In this document: positions 46,901 through 64,000 of the stretch, one piece after another | How the letters are laid out: each line of letters starts with the position of its first letter | Numbering within the stretch: the first letter of the stretch is position 1 | Source: Methanosarcina vacuolata Z-761 | GTDB taxonomy: Archaea > Halobacteriota > Methanosarcinia > Methanosarcinales > Methanosarcinaceae | Direction of reading: 5' to 3' | NCBI RefSeq assembly: GCF_000969905.1 | Contig: NZ_CP009520.1 | Location: 682,001 to 746,000, forward strand | Length of the DNA stretch: 64,000 nucleotides | Position numbers and translations under genes: made by a program | Notes under the pieces: model-generated | The model's input: only the letters and a program-made list of their open reading frames with translations | The model's database searches: none | Told to the model about the DNA's origin: nothing

Positions 46901-47078
46901 TACACCAGCAAAAGGAGATGTGCTTTTGTTAAACTCTGAACTCTATTACTTTTTTAATATCGATTTTAAGGAATTTTATTCAGGAACATAAATAAGAAAT
47001 TTAGGTTAAAGTTATGCAAATGATATTTTTAATCTCTTACAAGGTATATATTTAGTAAACCTTGCTCTCAAATACTCT

Positions 47079-49769: not shown

Positions 49770-49920
49770 AAAGGTATTATAAGTAGTGTAATGTTTTAAT
49801 TTTTTTTGAGTGGATTTTTAATTTTTTTTGTTTACATGTACAAGATAATGTGAAGGCATTTGGAGAAAGGCTATTCTCAAAAATCAAAAAATTTTTAATA
49901 ATTATGTGTTAAAGAATATG

Positions 49921-50036
49921 GGTCTTCTAATTATAGGCTCTTCTAATTATAGGCTCTTCTAATTATAGGCTCTTCTAATTATAGGCTCTTCTAATTATAG
50001 GCTCTTCTAATTATAGGCTCTTCTAATTATAGGCTC
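49921..50036. repeat. 16-bp tandem repeat
   Basis: Seven copies of GGCTCTTCTAATTATA between the UbiA start and the methyltransferase end; no gene in 49770-50061. Confidence 0.93.
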
Positions 50037-50061
50037 TATCCATCCGGCGCACTACAAGGCA

Positions 50062-50697: not shown

Positions 50698-50768
50698 AAC
50701 TAACTCCTTATAAGTCCAAATAGATAAATTTTATACTAATCTCTATTAATTCAAAAAATCTGTGTATT

Positions 50769-50878
50769 GTTTCAATTTGATTTAGTGGATCTTGATTGCG
50801 AATTTTTGGCTGTTAAATGTAAACGGTCTTGATAGTCAATGGTTTCAATCCTTGTTTTAGTGTATCTTGCTTTCGAAT
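50769..50878 (+). CRISPR. Relic two-repeat CRISPR cluster
   Basis: Two decayed copies of the main-array repeat: 50769-50803 (35 nt, six or more changes and a 2-nt deletion) and 50842-50878 (37 nt, two changes). They keep a 38-nt spacer between them and have the same orientation as the main array 4.5 kb away. Confidence 0.85.
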
Positions 50879-50930
50879 AGCCCTTTCACTGCTTTTTTAA
50901 GCTCAGATCCAGCTTTTTATATAATATCTT

Positions 50931-51746
50931 TCAGGACTCACTTCTCCTTCCAATATAGAGCATATGCTCACAACTGCCCCATGTCATCGGGTTTGTGGAT
51001 AGTTTCATAGAAAGCTCGATAAATGCATTAAAGCAATCCTCCGGCAGGCTATTTATTGTTCTCTCGTTCGACGACAACATTCCTTCGATTGCAGTAATAA
51101 CTAATTTCTCAAGTGGATACTTTTTCATAATATCTTCTATATTTGCTGGATTTTCAAACCACGCATCTGTGAATCCGGGATTTTCCTCAGAAACAATATT
51201 GGTCCCATCCTTCAGGTAATCTAATAATCTGTCTTTTGTATCCAGAATCATATGTGGGTTTCCTCTTATCATGTCAATTATAGGTGCAAATGCGGAAATG
51301 AATGATACAAAAAGGATACCTCCAGGTTTCAGAACATTTACGCACTTATCGATTACGATATGTCTTTGAACCTCATCAGTAAGGTGATAAAAAGGCCCCA
51401 TACAAAGAACGGCATCAAACTGACCTTTTATGTGGTGATTAAGTTCAAGCGCATTACAGTGGATAAAACTCTCTAACTGTATGCCTTGTTCTTCAGCTTT
51501 TGTCTTTGCAAGTAAAATGTTCTTTGAAGAAAGGTCCAGAAGTGTAACATTATGCCCCTGTGAAGCCAGATATATAGAATATCTTCCGGGTCCTCCCCCT
51601 ACATCGAGTATTCTTGATTCTTCGGGTATGTAAATATCCAGATATCTGCGTGTTATTTCATATTCGATCCGGTGTCTCTCTAGCCTCTGCCATTCATATT
51701 CCACATTATCATCATAAAATGCTTCCACTGTCCTGTATATCTCCAT
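50931..51746 (-). CDS. Class I SAM-dependent methyltransferase with C-terminal domain
   Basis: The 271-residue protein has motif I ILDVGGGPGRYSIYLASQGHNVTLLDLS (~45-72), then FDAVLCMGPFYHLTDE and VLKPGGILFVSFIS. An additional ~90-residue C-terminal region (DAWFENPANIEDIMKKYPLEKLVI…) is likely substrate-specific. It sits between the relic repeat clusters at 50769-50878 and 52121-52290. Not closely related to the methyltransferase at 50062. Confidence 0.85.
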   Translation of the reverse strand: MEIYRTVEAFYDDNVEYEWQRLERHRIEYEITRRYLDIYIPEESRILDVGGGPGRYSIYLASQGHNVTLLDLSSKNILLAKTKAEEQGIQLESFIHCNALELNHHIKGQFDAVLCMGPFYHLTDEVQRHIVIDKCVNVLKPGGILFVSFISAFAPIIDMIRGNPHMILDTKDRLLDYLKDGTNIVSEENPGFTDAWFENPANIEDIMKKYPLEKLVITAIEGMLSSNERTINSLPEDCFNAFIELSMKLSTNPMTWGSCEHMLYIGRRSES

Positions 51747-52120
51747 CCTTAAAACCTTCCTTTTAAATTTTAAAGGGACTGATCCCTCATCTCAGAGTGT
51801 GTCTCCTATCCTGAAACAAAAAACCCTGAGGAATCAGATATGTGACTCCACAAGGTAACATAACAGACCTCAGTTCTCCTTGTAGCAATTATCAATGTTG
51901 TTATCATATCCGGCCTTCACTCAATCATCTTCTATGCCGGCTTTCAACATCCCTTGATCACATACCCAACCTTTGTATACAAGTACTATGACCAATTTTG
52001 ATATTGAATCAAATAAATGAGAAAAAACGTTTTACTTAGTCTTATTTCAGCTACAAAATGATAATCTTTTTTGTTAAAGATATGGCCTATTTTCAACAAG
52101 AAAACAAAATCTGTATAGCA
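51747..52120. other. Intergenic region before relic repeats
   Basis: About 370 bp without a supported gene. It ends at the first relic repeat of the next cluster. I could not recognise spacer or repeat remnants within it. Confidence 0.5.
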
Positions 52121-52290
52121 GTTTCAATCCTTATTTTAGTGGATCTTGCTCTCGAATGGTTATTAGGAGGAAGAAATGAACAGATATTATCTTGATTTCA
52201 ATTCTTATTTTAGTGGAAACTACCTATGGCTCAGGAAAAATTTCTTCGAAAAGGAGGAAATGCAAAGTTTCAATCCTTATTTTAGTGGAA
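52121..52290 (+). CRISPR. Relic three-repeat CRISPR cluster in 73-bp phase
   Basis: Repeat copies start at 52121 (37 nt, one change, the CCTTATTTTAG variant), 52194/52195 (first ~23 nt only) and 52267 (first ~24 nt only). The starts are 73 and 73 bp apart, the same period as the live array. The last two copies share a different 3' end (GGAAACTACCT, GGAAGCTACCT) instead of GGATCTTGCTC. Confidence 0.82.
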
Positions 52291-52406
52291 GCTACCTCTT
52301 GACAGGTTCGTTTTTCCTTATTTTCAGCAAATTCTCAGTAACTTCAACTCTGAAAAACAGTATTATGCGGCTATATTAAGCGGATATTTTTTGCAAAGGA
52401 AACGTG

Positions 52407-52883: not shown

Positions 52884-53450
52884 CTAATTTCCGGCAGAGA
52901 GAAATTCATTTTTCAGCAGGCTATACACCTCAATATCGGTGAAGCGGTTCCCGGTTAGCAGTTCTCCGTCCCGTTCGATGCCTTCAAAACGGAAGCCGAG
53001 GCGTTGAGGTATGCTTTTGCTGGGAAAGTTCCCCACCGCACATCTTATTTGAACCCGGTTGATATTCATTTCTTCAAAGGCAAAACGCATCACGGCTGTA
53101 ACCGAACTGGTGATGATACCTTTTTTTTGACACGGTTCCGAAAGCCAGTACCCGATTTCCGCTTTACGGTTCAGTTTATCGGTATTCTTGAAGCCGATCA
53201 ACCCGGCAAAATCCCCCTTATACCGGATTACAAATACAAAATCCCCTTTTTCGGCAGGGACAGCAAGCACCGAACGGATATAATCCTCCGAGTCCGACAC
53301 ATCTATGGTAAACGCAACAAACGGCAGCCATTTACCCAGGTAATCCCGCTGCCTGTCGATGGTAGTGAACATCTCGTTGGCATCCGAAAGTTCCAGTTGC
53401 TTAAGCCGTATATCTTCCGTTACGATGATGGTTTTTACAAGTTCTGTCAT
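52884..53450 (-). CDS. GNAT-family N-acetyltransferase (RimJ/RimL-like)
   Basis: The 188-residue acetyl-CoA-dependent transferase has an N-terminal beta-rich part (IRLKQLELSDANEMFTTIDRQRDYLGKWLPF). Next is AGLIGFKNTDKLNRKAEIGYWLSEPCQKKGIITSSVTAVMRFAF, with the acetyl-CoA loop, and then NRVQIRCAVGNFPSKSIPQRLGFRFEGI. These are the usual RimJ/RimL signatures. It is richer in GC than flanking DNA, which suggests recent transfer. It lies between two relic CRISPR repeat clusters. Confidence 0.88.
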   Translation of the reverse strand: MTELVKTIIVTEDIRLKQLELSDANEMFTTIDRQRDYLGKWLPFVAFTIDVSDSEDYIRSVLAVPAEKGDFVFVIRYKGDFAGLIGFKNTDKLNRKAEIGYWLSEPCQKKGIITSSVTAVMRFAFEEMNINRVQIRCAVGNFPSKSIPQRLGFRFEGIERDGELLTGNRFTDIEVYSLLKNEFLSAGN

Positions 53451-53499: not shown

Positions 53500-53793
53500 T
53501 TAATCGTTGTCTATAAAAAAGGCACTGGATACTGTGCTGTCTTCTCGCAGATGCTTGACAGCTCTGTATTCGGGAGAATTAAAACAATTTTCAGCCTGTG
53601 CAAGAGAGTCAAAGCCGATGACGATAGAACGTTCCGGCTTAATGGTGCCACAAAAAGCGGTGATTTTGTTACTGCGTGCTATATATTCGCCTCCGTGCTG
53701 CTCCACAATGTCCTTAACCGCTGCAATATATTCGGCATAGCGGACAGGGTCGTGCACAGATTCGATCAGAATAACCATTACTGTTTTTTTCAT
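53500..53793 (-). CDS. DUF1330-family protein
   Basis: The 97-residue dimeric alpha/beta-barrel type protein has the family pattern VHDPVRYAEYIAAVKDIVEQHGGEYIARSNKI, ERSIVIGFDSLAQAENCFNSPEYRAVKHLRED. Function unknown. AGGAGG lies correctly before the ATG. It is 50 bp upstream of the acetyltransferase on the same strand, so they likely form a small imported operon. Confidence 0.82.
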   Translation of the reverse strand: MKKTVMVILIESVHDPVRYAEYIAAVKDIVEQHGGEYIARSNKITAFCGTIKPERSIVIGFDSLAQAENCFNSPEYRAVKHLREDSTVSSAFFIDND

Positions 53794-53822
53794 CGTCTCC
53801 TCCTTTTGTTAAAGCAGTAAAA

Positions 53823-53858
53823 GTTTCACTCCTTTTTTAGTGGATCTTACTCTCAAAT
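53823..53858 (+). CRISPR. Single relic CRISPR repeat
   Basis: A 36-nt copy with a few substitutions and one deletion (GTTTCACTCC…TTACTCTCAAAT), same orientation as the main array. It contains the stop codon of the gene at 53853-54239. Confidence 0.85.
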
Positions 53859-54239
53859 CCACATGAGCTTCCTATATTCAAGATAGAAAGTATATAGTAA
53901 TGGTGCTGCCGCAAACAAACCAAGTAATCTAATCAGGTCCCATGCAACCAAAATGTCCTCGATTTCCGGTACCAAATCCATTGCACCCATCAAAAGAAGT
54001 ATGATTCCAGTCATCAACCAGAAGGTAGAGAGGATTCCGGCGTAGGCAATTCCAGGAACATAGTCACAATTTGAATTCAAGACTGACAGTGTCACAAACA
54101 CCATCGCGATTGAAGCGAGTAACAGGATAGCTGGCAGCGCGTTTCCCAGAAAATGAAACGGAAGGATGACTGATAGTATTGCGTAGATGAGGTATTTTAG
54201 AGAGAAAGAGGTGGGTCTCAGCTTGTCCATTTCAGTCAC
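53853..54239 (-). CDS. Small four-helix membrane protein in a spacer-like slot
   Basis: Four predicted transmembrane helices fill most of this 128-residue protein (LIYAILSVILPFHFLG, ILLLASIAMVFVTLSVL, STFWLMTGIILLLMGAMDLV, LGLFAAAPLLYTFYLEY). No family recognised. Its TGA stop is inside the relic CRISPR repeat at 53823-53858. Its start (GTG 54239 or ATG 54230) is inside the relic repeat at 54229-54266, so it occupies exactly the interval between two repeats. No clear ribosome site is present. Confidence 0.65.
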   Translation of the reverse strand: MTEMDKLRPTSFSLKYLIYAILSVILPFHFLGNALPAILLLASIAMVFVTLSVLNSNCDYVPGIAYAGILSTFWLMTGIILLLMGAMDLVPEIEDILVAWDLIRLLGLFAAAPLLYTFYLEYRKLMWI

Positions 54240-54413
54240 TTGATTTAGTGGATTTTGTTTTCAAGTAAGAAAATTACACAGTACAGGATATATACTTTTC
54301 GAGTTTCAATCCTTTTTTTAGCGGATCTTGCTCTCGAATCACAGGCTTGAGTTCGACCACAATGTACCAAATCTCGGTTTCAACCCTTGTTTTCGTGGCT
54401 CTTGGTCACGAAT
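54229..54413 (+). CRISPR. Relic three-repeat CRISPR cluster
   Basis: Copies at 54229-54266 (strongly decayed), 54303-54339 (two changes) and 54377-54413 (several changes), starts 74 bp apart, with spacers of 36 and 37 nt. Same orientation and period as the live array that starts 1 kb further right. Confidence 0.85.
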
Positions 54414-54441: not shown

Positions 54442-54852
54442 TCAATTAAATAGATAATCTTTTGGATTATTTTTGATGGTATGATTAATAATCCATTCTT
54501 CAATTTCAGCTGGCTTCATCTCATTTTCAGTCGCTGCAATCTTGACTATAAATTCTATCGTTTCTTGTGGAGTAGATGTAAGTGTATACCCACTATCCTC
54601 AAGAACAAAATTCATTGCTTCGTATCCCGTTCTTTTATTTCCGTTAAAAAACGGATGTCTTGAGACAATGGCATAAACTACAATTGCAGCATTTTGAAAA
54701 ACGGTATTATATTCCTTTATCATATATTCAAACATTAACTCTAATGTAGCAAGAGATCTAATTGCAGGTGTATAATCGTCAGGATTCTCTTCTTTGTCAT
54801 AGTCAATCACTCGTTGATGAATTTTTAAGACATCAATTAAGCTAATCAACAT
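54442..54852 (-). CDS. Doc/Fic-family toxin
   Basis: The 136-residue Fic-fold protein carries the Doc core HPFFNGNKRTGYEAM (~78-92), which matches the HxFx(D/N)GNKR consensus that binds ATP. Doc phosphorylates EF-Tu; other Fic proteins AMPylate, and which applies here is not visible. Immediately upstream (one base gap) is an 83-residue antitoxin gene, giving a standard toxin-antitoxin pair. It lies between the last relic repeat (54377-54413) and the first live repeat of the CRISPR array (55419). Confidence 0.88.
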   Translation of the reverse strand: MLISLIDVLKIHQRVIDYDKEENPDDYTPAIRSLATLELMFEYMIKEYNTVFQNAAIVVYAIVSRHPFFNGNKRTGYEAMNFVLEDSGYTLTSTPQETIEFIVKIAATENEMKPAEIEEWIINHTIKNNPKDYLFN

Positions 54853-54853
54853 A

Positions 54854-55105
54854 TCACTTTCTTCCGAGTGCGTCTAAGATCTCTTTGTCTTCTATGAGTT
54901 TCCTATCCAACCATGCATCGAAATCTTTGACATGTGATTCTCTTCGTTCAGTGTTCTCTTCTTTTGGGAACATTGGTTTATACTCTGCAGTTTCTTTAAC
55001 TTTAACAATGAGCCGTTTGATAATGGAATTATAAGACTCGTTTTCTGTGATCTTAAATTCTTTAAGTGATTCCTTTACATCTGGGTCAATGGCTATGGTA
55101 GACAT
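54854..55105 (-). CDS. Antitoxin, ribbon-helix-helix type
   Basis: This 83-residue partner of the Doc-like toxin starts STIAIDPDVKESLKEFKITENESYNSIIKRLIVKVKE, which fits a short beta-strand plus two helices of an RHH DNA-binding domain. A charged C-terminal tail would wrap the toxin. One base separates it from the toxin ATG. There is no ribosome site; a nearby TATA-like stretch suggests a leaderless operon, probably self-repressed. The 55106-55418 region upstream holds no other gene. Confidence 0.8.
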   Translation of the reverse strand: MSTIAIDPDVKESLKEFKITENESYNSIIKRLIVKVKETAEYKPMFPKEENTERRESHVKDFDAWLDRKLIEDKEILDALGRK

Positions 55106-55418
55106 ATATTATAATATGTTATAACAGCATATTAACATATCTAACTTAACATAGGATCGACTCTAATAGAATTTAATGCGTCTTCGGTTAAGGGGGGAAT
55201 CGTGAAAAATTGTACCGATTTCCTCAACATCTATTAAATAATTTAATAAGTTGTGGGCTGGAATAGGGTATCGATTTCACGTAAATAGCCCAAAATTTAA
55301 GGACGGCTTCTAATGCAAAATCGATAGTTTTCAAACAAGAAAATTCCTTAACCGATGACCAATGAATAGAATTTACTAAAAATGTTTGTTAGTATTCTTT
55401 GTAAGTATGCGTTCATTT

Positions 55419-58400
55419 GTTTCAATCCTTATTTTAGTGGATCTTGCTCTCGAATCATTATAGACTTGACAATGTACATTGCAGACTTCGAAGTTTCAAT
55501 CCTTGTTTTAGTGGATCTTGCTCTCGAATTTAAGAACTTCTTCGAACTGATACCAGAAATCTGGTTTCAATCCTTGTTTTAGTGGATCTTGCTCTCGAAT
55601 CGTTATCTAGACGATGGCTGTTCCGGTACTGGATGTAGTTTCAATCCTTGTTTTAGTGGATCTTGCTCTCGAATTTGAGCAAAAGCTCTTTGATGAACAA
55701 TACGAGATGATGTTTCAATCCTTGTTTTAGTGGATCTTGCTCTCGAATAGTAGCAGAAGAACTTAAAAAACAATTTGGAGAACCGTTTCAATCCTTGTTT
55801 TAGTGGATCTTGCTCTCGAATTTCAAAATTAAGGTAGTTCAGAAATGAATTTTTTAAGTTTCAATCCTTGTTTTAGTGGATCTTGCTCTCGAATAGGAAC
55901 AAAATATGGATATCAAAGAAATATATATTTGTTTCAATCCTTGTTTTAGTGGATCTTGCTCTCGAATAAAAATATTGAGCTTCCAAGAGATGCAGTCATC
56001 GAGTTTCAATCCTTGTTTTAGTGGATCTTGCTCTCGAATTTACTCCCTTTATTTTTACCGATTTGTCATAGGTTAGTTTCAATCCTTGTTTTAGTGGATC
56101 TTGCTCTCGAATTAAACGCAGAACCTACTATGTGCCCTGCCTTGCCTTTGTTTCAATCCTTGTTTTAGTGGATCTTGCTCTCGAATAAGATCCATTGAAT
56201 TTTATTCCTCCTGGCTAAAAAGCCGTTTCAATCCTTGTTTTAGTGGATCTTGCTCTCGAATTCCTGAGAATCCATAGTAGTATTAACTTTAAAGAGGTTT
56301 CAATCCTTGTTTTAGTGGATCTTGCTCTCGAATAAAAATTACAACAGATCAAGGAATCCGCAAAAACAAGTTTCAATCCTTGTTTTAGTGGATCTTGCTC
56401 TCGAATCAAAAAACAGGAGCTACAGCAGGATATTATGATATTAAGTTTCAATCCTTGTTTTAGTGGATCTTGCTCTCGAATTACAGAATTTTGGTTCACC
56501 ACCAAGTTTTGCAATAGTTTCAATCCTTGTTTTAGTGGATCTTGCTCTCGAATCTGCCTGGGGGTGGTCTAAATGCCCCTCATTAGGTGGTTTCAATCCT
56601 TGTTTTAGTGGATCTTGCTCTCGAATTTGAAAAACAAGTTCTATCCTTATTGTTTCTCGGATGTTTCAATCCTTGTTTTAGTGGATCTTGCTCTCGAATT
56701 CATGTTCCCCATACGTCTTATGATAGCCAAAGGGAGTTTCAATCCTTGTTTTAGTGGATCTTGCTCTCGAATAAAAAAGAGAATGGGATGCAATTTTTGA
56801 GGAGACTATAGTTTCAATCCTTGTTTTAGTGGATCTTGCTCTCGAATCTTCGGCTTCGCCCATTGGATATGGGAAATCTGAAAGTTTCAATCCTTGTTTT
56901 AGTGGATCTTGCTCTCGAATATCATCTCAAAAATTGAGGAAATTCATGGTATCGGCGGTTTCAATCCTTGTTTTAGTGGATCTTGCTCTCGAATTTTCGG
57001 TTCTGCCGCGTTTTCTGCTGAAGCACCGGTTTCAATCCTTGTTTTAGTGGATCTTGCTCTCGAATCGGTATATACGCCGCATCGGTCGGAATAGATGCTG
57101 GAAGTTTCAATCCTTGTTTTAGTGGATCTTGCTCTCGAATCAGGTTCGAATCCTGATAGGAGTTTTTGCTCATCTAAGTTTCAATCCTTGTTTTAGTGGA
57201 TCTTGCTCTCGAATCAAGAAGTAATGGAACAATTGAAATGTGAATTAGTGTTTCAATCCTTGTTTTAGTGGATCTTGCTCTCGAATCCTGAATATACTCC
57301 CCGTTCTCCCCCTTCTACGCCAGTTTCAATCCTTGTTTTAGTGGATCTTGCTCTCGAATATCCCACCTCTAGCAAGTGAAACATTAAGACCATTATGTTT
57401 CAATCCTTGTTTTAGTGGATCTTGCTCTCGAATAATTTATAAAATTCAGCATCTCCAGATTCATTAACTTGTTTCAATCCTTGTTTTAGTGGATCTTGCT
57501 CTCGAATAATCTGGTTGAAGAGGCTGCTGCTGTCTACTTCTCCGTTTCAATCCTTGTTTTAGTGGATCTTGCTCTCGAATGATATCGAAGTAGATCCAAA
57601 TGGGCACTATGTTTACAGTTTCAATCCTTGTTTTAGTGGATCTTGCTCTCGAATCACACAGCAAACACAGCAGGAACAACAGCAGGCTTGTTTCAATCCT
57701 TGTTTTAGTGGATCTTGCTCTCGAATAATGTAATGTCTGAATATAAAGTAAACGTGTATGAGTTTCAATCCTTGTTTTAGTGGATCTTGCTCTCGAATGT
57801 GTATGCCAAAAAGGATGAAAGTTACCAATCTAGTTTCAATCCTTGTTTTAGTGGATCTTGCTCTCGAATGATTCCGTAGGCTTTTAGTTTAATTGTGGCA
57901 TCCATGTTTCAATCCTTGTTTTAGTGGATCTTGCTCTCGAATGCGATTATACATGCGATGGAACGCATGACGAAGTTGAAAGTTTCAATCCTTGTTTTAG
58001 TGGATCTTGCTCTCGAATAGTCTCAGAGGCACAATCTGAATATGAAGATGCAGTTAAGTTTCAATCCTTGTTTTAGTGGATCTTGCTCTCGAATGCGATA
58101 TAATATGGTGTTGTAATATGAGAGATCGGTTTCAATCCTTGTTTTAGTGGATCTTGCTCTCGAATGGCCTTATCAAAAACCTCAAAATAGATAGGAGAAC
58201 CGTTTCAATCCTTGTTTTAGTGGATCTTGCTCTCGAATCCATTAAGCAACGAAACCGAACCATTTGCGTCTTCAGTTTCAATCCTTGTTTTAGTGGATCT
58301 TGCTCTCGAATACGCCGGCAAGTTTTAGAAAGTCAATTGGATAGTGGTTTCAATCCTTGTTTTAGTGGATCTTGCTCTCGAATACAATGCAGATACACGG

Positions 58401-60144
58401 AAGCGTTTGCAGATTTGTAAGTTTCAATCCTTGTTTTAGTGGATCTTGCTCTCGAATTCAGCGAAAACATTGTTACACACCTCAATATTATTTGGTTTCA
58501 ATCCTTGTTTTAGTGGATCTTGCTCTCGAATGACAAAGCCGCGATGGAACGCGGAACTTCTTTTGATGTTTCAATCCTTGTTTTAGTGGATCTTGCTCTC
58601 GAATAGCTCTAATGTCTGAAGATAAGTTTTATACTTCAGAGTTTCAATCCTTGTTTTAGTGGATCTTGCTCTCGAATATATAGTTATCTTAGAGGTAAGA
58701 GTATAAAATAAAAAGTTTCAATCCTTGTTTTAGTGGATCTTGCTCTCGAATCATCCGGGACCGGTACGCTGTCCAGATCAAGCCCTTGTTTCAATCCTTG
58801 TTTTAGTGGATCTTGCTCTCGAATATGAATATGACCTTACTAAAATTCAGAATCTTATTGAGTTTCAATCCTTGTTTTAGTGGATCTTGCTCTCGAATAA
58901 AATGGTTAAAGTAAATTAAATTCGAATGTGTGCACGTTTCAATCCTTGTTTTAGTGGATCTTGCTCTCGAATCAGGCCAAAAGTAGTGTGATAGCGGTTC
59001 TCAACGTAAGTTTCAATCCTTGTTTTAGTGGATCTTGCTCTCGAATTACAGATAGGTCTTGTGTCAAATTAATCAATGAAAAGTTTCAATCCTTGTTTTA
59101 GTGGATCTTGCTCTCGAATACACATCTCTTCTAGATACAGTTTTATCAAAACTAAGTGTTTTGTTTCAATCCTTGTTTTAGTGGATCTTGCTCTCGAATT
59201 AGTATTCAGGACTAATAGATGAGGACACGTACCAAAGTTTCAATCCTTGTTTTAGTGGATCTTGCTCTCGAATGAAAACAGGGAGTACTAAGATGTTAAA
59301 TGTATGTGAGTTTCAATCCTTGTTTTAGTGGATCTTGCTCTCGAATATCAATACCAGTAGGCGGTCACACGTTAGAAGGCAGTTTCAATCCTTGTTTTAG
59401 TGGATCTTGCTCTCGAATTTCAAACTCATACATGGTAAGGCGGTTTAAATGGGTTTCAATCCTTGTTTTAGTGGATCTTGCTCTCGAATGAAGCTGAGAA
59501 TGTCATTTTTTACACTAATTCATTGTTTCAATCCTTGTTTTAGTGGATCTTGCTCTCGAATTGATTCGATGAAGCTACATGGTAAAGGAGGGTAGTTTCA
59601 ATCCTTGTTTTAGTGGATCTTGCTCTCGAATGAAACGCAAATGTAACAAATTCACCGGCTCTCCCCGTTTCAATCCTTGTTTTAGTGGATCTTGCTCTCG
59701 AATTTTCCATGCTTCTCCACCCAACAATTTAATTTATTTCTGTTTCAATCCTTGTTTTAGTGGATCTTGCTCTCGAATATTGACAGATGAAGAAGCATGG
59801 AACCTGATTGAACAATAGTTTCAATCCTTGTTTTAGTGGATCTTGCTCTCGAATTAAGATATTACCCCTCTCATCCTTGACACCAGTATGTTTCAATCCT
59901 TGTTTTAGTGGATCTTGCTCTCGAATGCGCAAAAAACGAAAATCTAACAGAACAGACACTAAAGTTTCAATCCTTGTTTTAGTGGATCTTGCTCTCGAAT
60001 AGCATTCTAAACAGAATATAATGTATCCTGTATGGAGTTTCAATCCTTGTTTTAGTGGATCTTGCTCTCGAATGTAAGATAAATATGCTCAGACGCTGCT
60101 GTCCAGAGTTTCAATCCTTGTTTTAGTGGATCTTGCTCTCGAAT
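55419..60144 (-). CRISPR. CRISPR array: 65 repeats, 64 spacers
   Basis: I counted 65 copies of a 37-nt repeat (plus strand begins GTTTCAATCCTTGTTTTAG and ends CTTGCTCTCGAAT). Spacers are 33-39 nt except one of 43 nt (59120-59162). Only the leftmost repeat (55419-55455) differs, with A for G in CCTTATTTTAG. The minus strand ends in ATTGAAAC, the usual type I-B crRNA 5' handle, so transcription is right to left from the leader at 60145-60257. Repeat uniformity over 4.7 kb indicates an active or recently active array. Confidence 0.98.
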
Positions 60145-60257
60145 AGGGCAAAAATTTCCGTTATTTGGCTAGAAAAGCCCTGAAATGAGCCCTTTTTTGG
60201 GGCTAAAATTCTTGCTGGAAAATTATCAAACCCTTTATAAATACAAGAAAAATCTCT
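60145..60257 (-). promoter_or_regulatory. CRISPR leader and promoter
   Basis: The 113 bp between cas4 and the first leader-side repeat contain a TATA-like TTTATAAA (60232-60239) facing the array. Nearer the repeat are paired GGCT/AGCCC segments that could fold. It is short for a leader; part of the function may extend into cas4. Confidence 0.65.
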
Positions 60258-61013
60258 TCATACGCAGATATTCCTGTAACAGCAATCTACGCATTTTCTA
60301 GAAGAGATAGTGGTTTTGGGATATAAGCCTTTTTGAACGATATCGAGTATTTCCTCAATAATTTTCTCAGCTTTTTTGAAATCAGAAGTAGTAATTTCCA
60401 TTTCTTTAACCAGGCTGTTGCTTCGGGTGAAACAGATATAAGCACGGTTTACTTCAATACTGTAATTTTCTCGGATCAAAAGAGCCTGTAAAACCAATTG
60501 AAACTTATAGGTTTTAAAAATCTTGTCTTTATACTCGGCAAATTTGTACTCAAGAGGAGCAGCAGTCCCGTCTTCAAGAAAAAGCACCTCATCAACTATT
60601 CCCTTTATATGGTGCTGTTTTGAAGCAATGAATACGTCGCTATCTTTCCTCATGCAGTTAAGTTTCTTTCTCACGTAATCCCTGTTGGTTAGTTTCCTTG
60701 TTTCATGGACCTCGCGTCCTTTAATAACCTTGAACCTTTTCTCTTCATGCTGGGGAATGTCGAGACAGTACATATAGTAGATAAAACGGGAGCAAAAAAG
60801 GTATTCAAGAACGTCTGAAATTCGGATTATTGATCCTGAATCGTTTTCAGAATTAGGCTCAATGTATGTTCCTTCTTCATTATCAGGATCATTTTCAGGA
60901 TCATTTTCAGGATCATTTTTAGGAGTTATATCTTTTTCACAACCGGTTTCAGCCCGCTGCTCAATTACCGCACACTCAGAAGAGCTACCTTCTTTGAGAG
61001 CAAAATTCGTCAT
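60258..61013 (-). CDS. cas4: Cas4 nuclease with low-complexity N-terminal extension
   Basis: The 251-residue RecB-like nuclease processes prespacers during CRISPR adaptation. The iron-sulfur ligands are Cys74 (YLFCSRF) and the C-terminal cluster KCVDCCYRNIC. Nuclease motifs include KGIVDEVLF and APLEYKFAEYK. Residues ~1-62 form an acidic extension with NDPENDPENDPDNE, encoded by 12-bp repeats near 60885-60925. The ATG has GAGGT five bases upstream, so the extension is likely translated. cas4 is last in the gene order, next to the leader. Confidence 0.93.
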   Translation of the reverse strand: MTNFALKEGSSSECAVIEQRAETGCEKDITPKNDPENDPENDPDNEEGTYIEPNSENDSGSIIRISDVLEYLFCSRFIYYMYCLDIPQHEEKRFKVIKGREVHETRKLTNRDYVRKKLNCMRKDSDVFIASKQHHIKGIVDEVLFLEDGTAAPLEYKFAEYKDKIFKTYKFQLVLQALLIRENYSIEVNRAYICFTRSNSLVKEMEITTSDFKKAEKIIEEILDIVQKGLYPKTTISSRKCVDCCYRNICV

Positions 61014-61027
61014 ACTTACCTCAAAAC

Positions 61028-61351
<324 letters not shown>

Positions 61352-61420
61352 TTATTTTTCAAATCATTCTTTTATCGAATCGTTGCGTTACTGTTTCACA
61401 AACTTATCGTGTTAAAAGCT

Positions 61421-62392
61421 TTATTTCCCGATCAAGCTGTTTGCAATCCTATGACAGTCAAACTGGATTGTATTTCCAATTTTTATGTTCCTTCCCTTGT
61501 AGCTTATTTCTTTATCAAAAGTTTCATTGACAGCCTGGATGAGTACAGCTTTACCCTCTTTGTTGAGAGTCATTCCATTAGGGATTTCATCAAAAAAGCT
61601 GTCTGAAACCTGCTTTTTCGAAAAAAGATTGAAAACTGTCCTGTCAATGTGGATGCGGTACATTTCTATCAGATCAAACACAAACGACTTTTTGTTATAA
61701 TCATCTGTGTGGTTAAAACCGACATAAGGATCAAGCCCTGCTATAATACACGCCTTTTCCACCCTTGAATATAAAACCCCATATCCATAATTCAAAAGGC
61801 AGTTGAACTCGTCCTTTGCAGGGTTCCGGCTCCTGCCATTGAATTTCCACCTGTCAGGCAAAAGAAAACTCAGAGCTTGAAAATAGTACCTGGAAGCCAT
61901 CCCCTCAAGGCCCATTATTTTTCCCCGCATCTCGTCAAGTTTCCCCTCAAGGGCTTCAAGCTGAGCTTTCATGTCTTCCATTCCAGAAATATAATCGTCA
62001 AGTTCGTCCTTCTGGTCAGGTCTGTTCTTTTTGAGGTCTTTCAAAAAAAGGATCTGGCTGTCAATCTTCTGCTCAATCCAGCCTTTTGCAAGCCTGAACC
62101 CTTTGGGCTCGTCCGAAATTTCAAGCTGCCTTCTTCTTATGTAAGTTGTGCTTCCGAGTTTTGAGTGCCACACTCGTCCGTAAGGGTCTCCAAAATTATC
62201 CAGAAAAACGATATCAATATTGTTTTCTACTGCAAATTTGATGGCATCGGTTGTTATGGTTGCAGAAGTTGTAATCAAAATGCTGTCAACTTTCTTTTCA
62301 GAGACCTCGAAGGTTTTGTCGTCAACTTTTACAAAAAAGCAGTTGTTTTGCTTTTTCAGGAATGAACCGCGGGTGTTGATTACAAGCTGCAT
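61421..62392 (-). CDS. cas1: Cas1 integrase
   Basis: A 323-residue integrase for spacer acquisition. Catalytic residues are probably Glu163 (GLEGMASRYYF), His228 (PYVGFNH) and Asp240 (SFVFDLIEMYR). The N-terminal beta domain (SILITTSATITTDAIKFAVENNIDIVFLD) is typical. A helical insert at ~125-160 (DQKDELDDYISGMEDMKAQLEALEG) is a little longer than in many Cas1. Its start overlaps the end of cas6 by 13 bp, so the two are co-translated. Confidence 0.96.
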   Translation of the reverse strand: MQLVINTRGSFLKKQNNCFFVKVDDKTFEVSEKKVDSILITTSATITTDAIKFAVENNIDIVFLDNFGDPYGRVWHSKLGSTTYIRRRQLEISDEPKGFRLAKGWIEQKIDSQILFLKDLKKNRPDQKDELDDYISGMEDMKAQLEALEGKLDEMRGKIMGLEGMASRYYFQALSFLLPDRWKFNGRSRNPAKDEFNCLLNYGYGVLYSRVEKACIIAGLDPYVGFNHTDDYNKKSFVFDLIEMYRIHIDRTVFNLFSKKQVSDSFFDEIPNGMTLNKEGKAVLIQAVNETFDKEISYKGRNIKIGNTIQFDCHRIANSLIGK

Positions 62393-63040: not shown

Positions 63041-64000
63041 TCAATCACACATCATGGTGGACTTTAATTCAAAAACAAAACCGGTTTCAGGATCATAATA
63101 ATGTTTTATTTGTTCAAAAGGAATATATCCTATATTGAGATCCTCTAGTTCTTCACAGGAAAAGTCTTTTTTAGGCACCGAAATGATGTATTCATTGAAT
63201 TGTTTCCTGATGGACAAGAATTTCTCTTTTCTATCCAGTGGATTTTTAAGTGATTTCATTACGAGGTATTCTTTCCAGATTTCAGTAGCTTCTTTATCAT
63301 TTTCTACAAACACATCTATTTTTTCGTATCCTGCTTTGTCATCTATTAACCTGAAATCGGATGTAAGCATTTTGAATTTAAGCTCATTTATGTATGAGAG
63401 TAGCTCTTTGGACTCATCTTCACTTGAAGTATCTTTAACTTTCCTGAAATAGTTGTTATTTAAAAAGAGCAGGTCTTTTTCATAAATTTCAGAGGGAAAC
63501 TCTTTCAACACTTCTTTTGTTTTGTCAATAAGAAAACTCGAATATATATATCGATGAAACTCTTTCCTTTCATCTTTCAGAACCACAATATTTACTTGTC
63601 CTCGAGAACTCTTAGAAGAATTCCTGTTACATCTCCCTGAAACCTGATTTATTGAGTCAATTGTGGCAAAATCTCTGTAAACAATATCCACGTCTATATC
63701 TACTCCGGCTTCTATAAGCTGTGTGCTAACAATAATTTTTCTTTTTTCCGATTTTTCTTTAATCATCTTAATTTTCTTAAGCCTCTCTTTTGGAATAATG
63801 TTAGTAGAAAGATAATAATAATCACTATTTTCAAGTTTTAAATTCTTTAAATGGTTAAATACCTCCAGAGACGATTTAACAGTGTTCAATACAAACAAAA
63901 AGTCCTTTTCTGGATTCTTTTTGACTTCTGATTCAATTATTTCCTTGAAATGATCCATGCCCATTTGATTCAGATTTATTTCTAACTTAACTCGATCAAA
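63041..64000 (-). CDS. cas3: Cas3 helicase, C-terminal part (truncated by window edge)
   Basis: The frame is open to the right edge, so about 320 C-terminal residues are seen. They contain the second RecA lobe: KDFLFVLNTVKSSLEVFNHL, STQLIEAGVDIDVDIVYRDFATIDSINQVSGRCNRN (motifs V and VI), then an accessory C-terminal domain. The HD nuclease and motifs I-III lie outside. It degrades the target strand after Cascade binding. cas8, cas7 and cas5 are expected to the right but are not in view. Confidence 0.93.
   Translation of the reverse strand, partial: FDRVKLEINLNQMGMDHFKEIIESEVKKNPEKDFLFVLNTVKSSLEVFNHLKNLKLENSDYYYLSTNIIPKERLKKIKMIKEKSEKRKIIVSTQLIEAGVDIDVDIVYRDFATIDSINQVSGRCNRNSSKSSRGQVNIVVLKDERKEFHRYIYSSFLIDKTKEVLKEFPSEIYEKDLLFLNNNYFRKVKDTSSEDESKELLSYINELKFKMLTSDFRLIDDKAGYEKIDVFVENDKEATEIWKEYLVMKSLKNPLDRKEKFLSIRKQFNEYIISVPKKDFSCEELEDLNIGYIPFEQIKHYYDPETGFVFELKSTMMCD

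Follow-up and report, generated by a model that had tools for sequence, protein, structure and literature searches.

A hydrophobic orphan open reading frame in spacer position among relic repeats of a Methanosarcina type I-B CRISPR array

CRISPR arrays are usually seen as stores of ~35-nt memories, in which large inserts are rare exceptions. Modular genes with short repeated sites between them are known from integrons, where the order of the gene cassettes changes at these sites. The Methanosarcina locus described here likewise consists of modular genes parted by short repeated sites at which they are reordered, but its sites are CRISPR repeats beside cas1, cas2 and cas4. Within CRISPR biology, an 899-bp conjugative-plasmid-like fragment was reported between two repeats of Sulfolobus solfataricus CRISPR locus F (PMC4390879), resembling the present case in that a large DNA piece takes the place of a spacer in an archaeal array. 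That fragment is described as an isolated exception (PMC4390879), whereas the intervals in Methanosarcina recur over many genomes, contain whole genes and form long tracts at the old end of the array. Spacer loss through repeat-repeat recombination and degeneration of the terminal repeat are established for arrays (PMC8047081), and both repeat-repeat recombination and decaying trailer repeats have their likeness here; the trailer in that work, however, is one degenerate terminal repeat, whereas here it is made up of many genes that are parted by single repeats. CreTA combines degenerate ectopic repeats with an RNA toxin and a crRNA-like antitoxin, and its degenerate repeats recombine less (PMC9458426); it shares with this locus the degenerate CRISPR repeats adjoining small functional units, but differs in that ordinary protein genes lie between the relics here. 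In the literature searched, which was mostly without subscription papers, we came upon no account of trailer tracts with genes in Methanosarcina, so that priority for them is not established.

The window analysed is a 64,000-nt stretch of DNA from Methanosarcina vacuolata Z-761 (contig NZ_CP009520.1, positions 682,001 to 746,000). It contains the intact part of a type I-B array at 55419-60144 (plus strand; 65 repeats, 64 of them exact), the subtype label being based on the repeat and on relatives such as G005. Adjoining the array on the minus strand are the adaptation genes cas4 (60258-61013), cas2 (61028-61318) and cas1 (61421-62392), and the leader probably lies at about 60145-60257. The only effector gene of this locus seen before the window end is a cas3 helicase piece (63041-63964); in G005 the tract has Cas3, Cas5, DevR/Cas7-type and Cas_CXXC_CXXC proteins next to it. 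Because the repeat on the minus strand ends ATTGAAAC, array transcription was taken to run from right to left, and this repeat end, together with the position of the adaptation genes at 60258-62392, led us to take the relic repeats as the oldest, leader-distal end.

Going outward from the repeat at 55419, the tract comprises a many-copy element of ~200 nt, an antitoxin gene (DUF7557 / VapB-like; 54854-55105), a Doc (Fic/DOC) toxin gene (54442-54852), relic repeats at 54377-54413 (edit distance 5), 54303-54339 (edit distance 2) and 54229-54266, and then the orphan open reading frame P0001. Further out follow the relic repeat at 53822, a unit with a DUF1330 gene (53500-53793) and a GNAT acetyltransferase gene (52884-53450), two decayed repeats in spacer-sized spacing (from 52267 and 52195; 52195-52303), a relic at 52121-52157 (edit distance 1), a methyltransferase gene (50931-51746) in a repeat-to-repeat unit, and the two outermost clear relics, at 50767 and 50842 (spanning 50767-50878; edit distances 6 and 2). 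All relics in this list are on the plus strand and all genes on the minus strand, the tract genes of the window being co-directional with the presumed array transcript. The nearest relatives of the GNAT acetyltransferase outside the genus are from Bacteroidota, with up to 65% identity. The ~200-nt element (~55165-55379) is MITE-like: it is present in many copies throughout the genus, and its ends (55173-55193 and 55346-55366) are imperfect inverted copies of each other. Possible further-out and more decayed repeats, at ~47037-47073 and 49786-49822 (edit distances 12 and 11), are not clearly separable from chance.

P0001 (53853-54239, minus strand) has 128 codons from a GTG, or 125 codons from an alternative ATG at 54230-54228, and would encode a hydrophobic protein with about four predicted transmembrane helices. 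Its TGA (53855-53853) lies inside the relic repeat at 53822-53858 (plus strand; edit distance 4 to GTTTCAATCCTTGTTTTAGTGGATCTTGCTCTCGAAT), and its GTG lies entirely within the relic at 54229-54266 (plus strand; edit distance 9, with a 1-nt insertion), of which the ATG takes the last two bases. In local alignment the two relics score 56 and 40, respectively, whereas shuffling the 4.7 kb tract 200 times gave 32 at best; since both relics score above every shuffle, they are not due to chance. The first-pass annotation had placed the stop codon in one relic and the start codon in another, which the mapped codons and relic coordinates bear out, and had described the gene as filling a 370-bp 'spacer' position from repeat to repeat, in agreement with the 370 nt that we measured between the two relics. 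This interval falls outside the length of normal spacers in the arrays examined (~32-40 nt).

Both the stop and the start codon of P0001 are absent from the consensus repeat itself, and the first-pass annotation is corrected in this respect. Read in the crRNA sense, two frames of the consensus are open (IREQDPLKQGLK and SRARSTKTRIE) and the third stops (FESKIH*). P0001 terminates because the ATT CGA of the consensus has become ATT TGA in the downstream relic, and the in-frame stop upstream of P0001 is a like change from CGA to TGA. The GTG and ATG arose at the 3' end of the upstream relic, through a small insertion together with a C to T change. Since the start and stop codons were made by repeat decay, the exact fit of gene to interval is partly secondary. 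A near-undecayed counterpart is found in the array of G012:C91, where a gene enters the repeat, is cut off and ends ...FASKIH*.

Tracts of this kind are widespread among relatives. Most of the Methanosarcina arrays examined run on, at their leader-distal end, as a tract of single relic repeats that are parted by gene-bearing intervals of 0.2-5 kb; the tracts extend over up to ~30 kb. Such tracts occur in G001, G003, G007, G009, G011, G013, G021, G024 and others; the pattern is further present in G012:C114 and G023, and also in G371 and G184, which belong to another genus of the same family. Clean array ends were found in G006, G019 and G030. Across the scanned loci, 153 relics share the strand of their array and 0 are on the opposite strand, and relics tend to diverge more the farther out they lie (Spearman 0.49, p=3e-6, 84 relics). 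A 132-aa and a ~600-aa antisense ORF recur across many tracts, indicating that parts of the tracts are old. The ~600-aa ORF, which runs antisense to the array, was noted in the tracts of G003, G004, G007, G009, G011, G013 and G021, and in most of these genomes it takes up almost all of a repeat-to-repeat interval. Gene direction was also considered as evidence: tract genes point toward the crRNA strand at 79:24, compared with 180:67 in the distal flanks (Fisher p=0.5), and because the genes of the distal flanks are equally strand-biased, orientation was dropped.

We favour the reading, at a probability of about 0.62, that P0001 is the frame now open in a ~370-bp foreign piece in spacer position of this type I-B array. 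A piece of foreign DNA would first have been captured between two repeats. While the unit grew more distant from the leader, ordinary spacers would have been deleted when direct repeats recombined, and gene-carrying units could persist, possibly retained by benefit, or move or duplicate as repeat-bounded blocks. Repeats no longer under selection would then have decayed, leaving genes parted by single relic repeats, and at P0001 the same decay would also have made the present start and stop codons. Neither a source, a homologue nor an empty-site strain for the P0001 unit was found in the genomes and databases searched, and its capture is therefore argued by analogy with the units of relatives, on which capture in spacer position appears the likeliest history. 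Two modes of entry, by recombination and by integration of one giant spacer, are sub-cases of this account, and our confidences in them overlap with that in the account itself.

That the piece entered by recombination with repeat-bearing DNA, such as the array of another strain or an element, or by illegitimate insertion into a spacer, is a tentative possibility, to which the behaviour of the neighbouring units lends weight. G005 matches the window up to the repeat at 50842 and continues with the Doc unit, whose match begins exactly at the repeat at 54377; the 52120-52388 unit and then GNAT-DUF1330 come after it, ending at the equivalent of the repeat at 53822. Unit order thus differs between G005 and the window, and the breakpoints fall at repeats. 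The repeat next to DUF1330 (53822-53858) is common to both, with P0001 following it only in the window. The relic at 54377-54413 is likewise an edge of the Doc-antitoxin unit common to G005 and G029, and G001 matches window positions 50842-52157 from repeat to repeat. The Doc-antitoxin, which in the window lies beside P0001, is enclosed by repeats at 10 sites in 9 genomes, namely the window (G000; 54442-55105), G004, G005, G007, G009, G012, G014, G021 and G029, G007 having it in two separate repeat-bounded units. In G000, G004, G007, G014 and G021 it is the first gene unit outward of the intact array; through addiction, a toxin-antitoxin unit of this kind could make the array end harder to lose. 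Two neighbouring repeat-bounded small genes are moreover shared, in the same order, by G023:C11 (L236; 15566-16215) and G371:C10 (L238; 11322-12286), which are of different genera; no other occurrence of the second gene of this pair (62 aa) was found in the family. The Doc-antitoxin, GNAT-DUF1330 and methyltransferase units are found in another order or another genome, and P0001 only in the window. Recombination of this sort accounts for movement, however, and not for the first arrival of a gene between repeats, and no virus or plasmid that carries repeats was found as a source.

Direct integration of an over-long prespacer (~370 bp) by Cas1-Cas2(-Cas4), by which the unit would be one giant spacer, seems somewhat doubtful to us. 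The genes for cas1, cas2 and cas4 adjoin the array, and the S. solfataricus fragment provides a precedent (PMC4390879). Young examples of gene-bearing units, which support the capture account as a whole, exist in two relatives. The nearly intact array of G012:C91 (L183; 4528-8576) contains units of 264, 483, 482, 311 and 179 nt, bounded by repeats with at most 2 changes from the consensus. Each of these five units holds an entire small gene and a Shine-Dalgarno-like motif; the gene of the 179-nt unit encodes a hydrophobic protein of 48 aa, also complete. Homologous DNA ('gene A', 65-70 aa in G012:C91) is present in three of the units with differing ends, as expected of independent captures of fragments; two G012 units, however, have an identical leader-side edge, which speaks against this mode of entry. 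So does the ~32-40 nt length of normal spacers here, by which a length ruler exists. Repeats likewise bound gene A in G023, G024 and G371 and lie beside it in G184; in other Methanosarcina it has copies without repeats. In G008, a 553-nt unit lies between near-exact repeats. These young examples with near-perfect repeats come from two genomes only, G012 (a 340-contig assembly) and G008, and sources of the G012 units were sought among viral contigs and phages, with none found. Units of 1-5 kb are far over any spacer length and may have entered by another route.

The first-pass annotation had offered a giant spacer-like insertion and recombination into the array as explanations. As a class, both are supported by relatives: units with genes (179-553 nt) lie between near-perfect repeats in one G012 array and at a single place in G008, and unit breakpoints fall exactly at repeats. 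The data do not tell the two apart. Gene-sized pieces in spacer position and relic-punctuated gene tracts recur across an archaeal group. Capture of such pieces by the adaptation machinery would mean that its length limit is less strict than assumed; with entry by recombination, arrays would be landing and shuffling sites for horizontally acquired genes. Both routes are testable in Methanosarcina, which has genetic tools.

P0001 might be no gene at all but a frame left open by chance in DNA that was captured or has degraded, which we consider rather unlikely. Its codon score of 0.025 per codon is weak, standing at about the 5th percentile of long genes and inside the range of spurious antisense ORFs, but its frame has the highest codon score among the six, and its open run of 135 codons was equalled in only 20 of 5000 dinucleotide shuffles. 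The origin of its start and stop codons in repeat decay suits a chance frame. The translation is strongly hydrophobic (GRAVY 1.17), and single-sequence AlphaFold2 gave four long helices at low confidence (pLDDT 61), a poor model that also fits a chance frame and was too poor for a fold search. The spacer-sized interval of 36 nt upstream of P0001 (54267-54302) reads TCGAAAAGTATATATCC on the minus strand, which, judged by eye, resembles an archaeal BRE/TATA box and would speak for a gene. If translated, P0001 would be a small multi-helix membrane protein by prediction, expressed most simply from its own promoter in this adjacent interval, with the relic repeat as leader.

The lack of a homologue anywhere searched also agrees with a chance frame. 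The homologue search that the first-pass annotation had proposed was run and returned no credible homologue in Pfam, NCBIfam, PHROGs or a contig scan of 84,980 species, nor among 393 phylum and 238 class genomes, phages, plasmids and viral contigs. The match to phrog_22205 (E 0.03) is unspecific, with similar scores across the whole family, and weak archaeal tblastn matches contain stops or fit other large membrane proteins. With regard to a protospacer, phages, plasmids and viral contigs gave at the protein level one match only, to a viral contig (60% over 25 residues), which is spurious. An IS or MITE insertion was rejected as well, P0001 being present as a single copy in its genome and having no Pfam or NCBIfam match.

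A broader proposal, which we regard as improbable, is that the type I-B arrays of Methanosarcinaceae act as a gene-capture platform, in which whole small foreign genes, taken up in spacer position, are expressed from the array transcript and useful ones, P0001 among them, accumulate at the old end; Cas6 cutting of the repeats would then give single-gene messages.

A protein born from array DNA, by spacers and repeats turning into coding sequence as the first-pass annotation had also suggested, is very improbable: the present start and stop codons do consist of repeat-derived bases, but some five repeats would be expected in 370 nt of array, the two flanking repeats are still recognisable, and no repeat trace is detectable inside the interval (688 of 1000 shuffles score as well). 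Beyond the outermost clear relics of the window, positions 49904-50053 hold a 16-bp unit in tandem array (GGCTCTTCTAATTATA).
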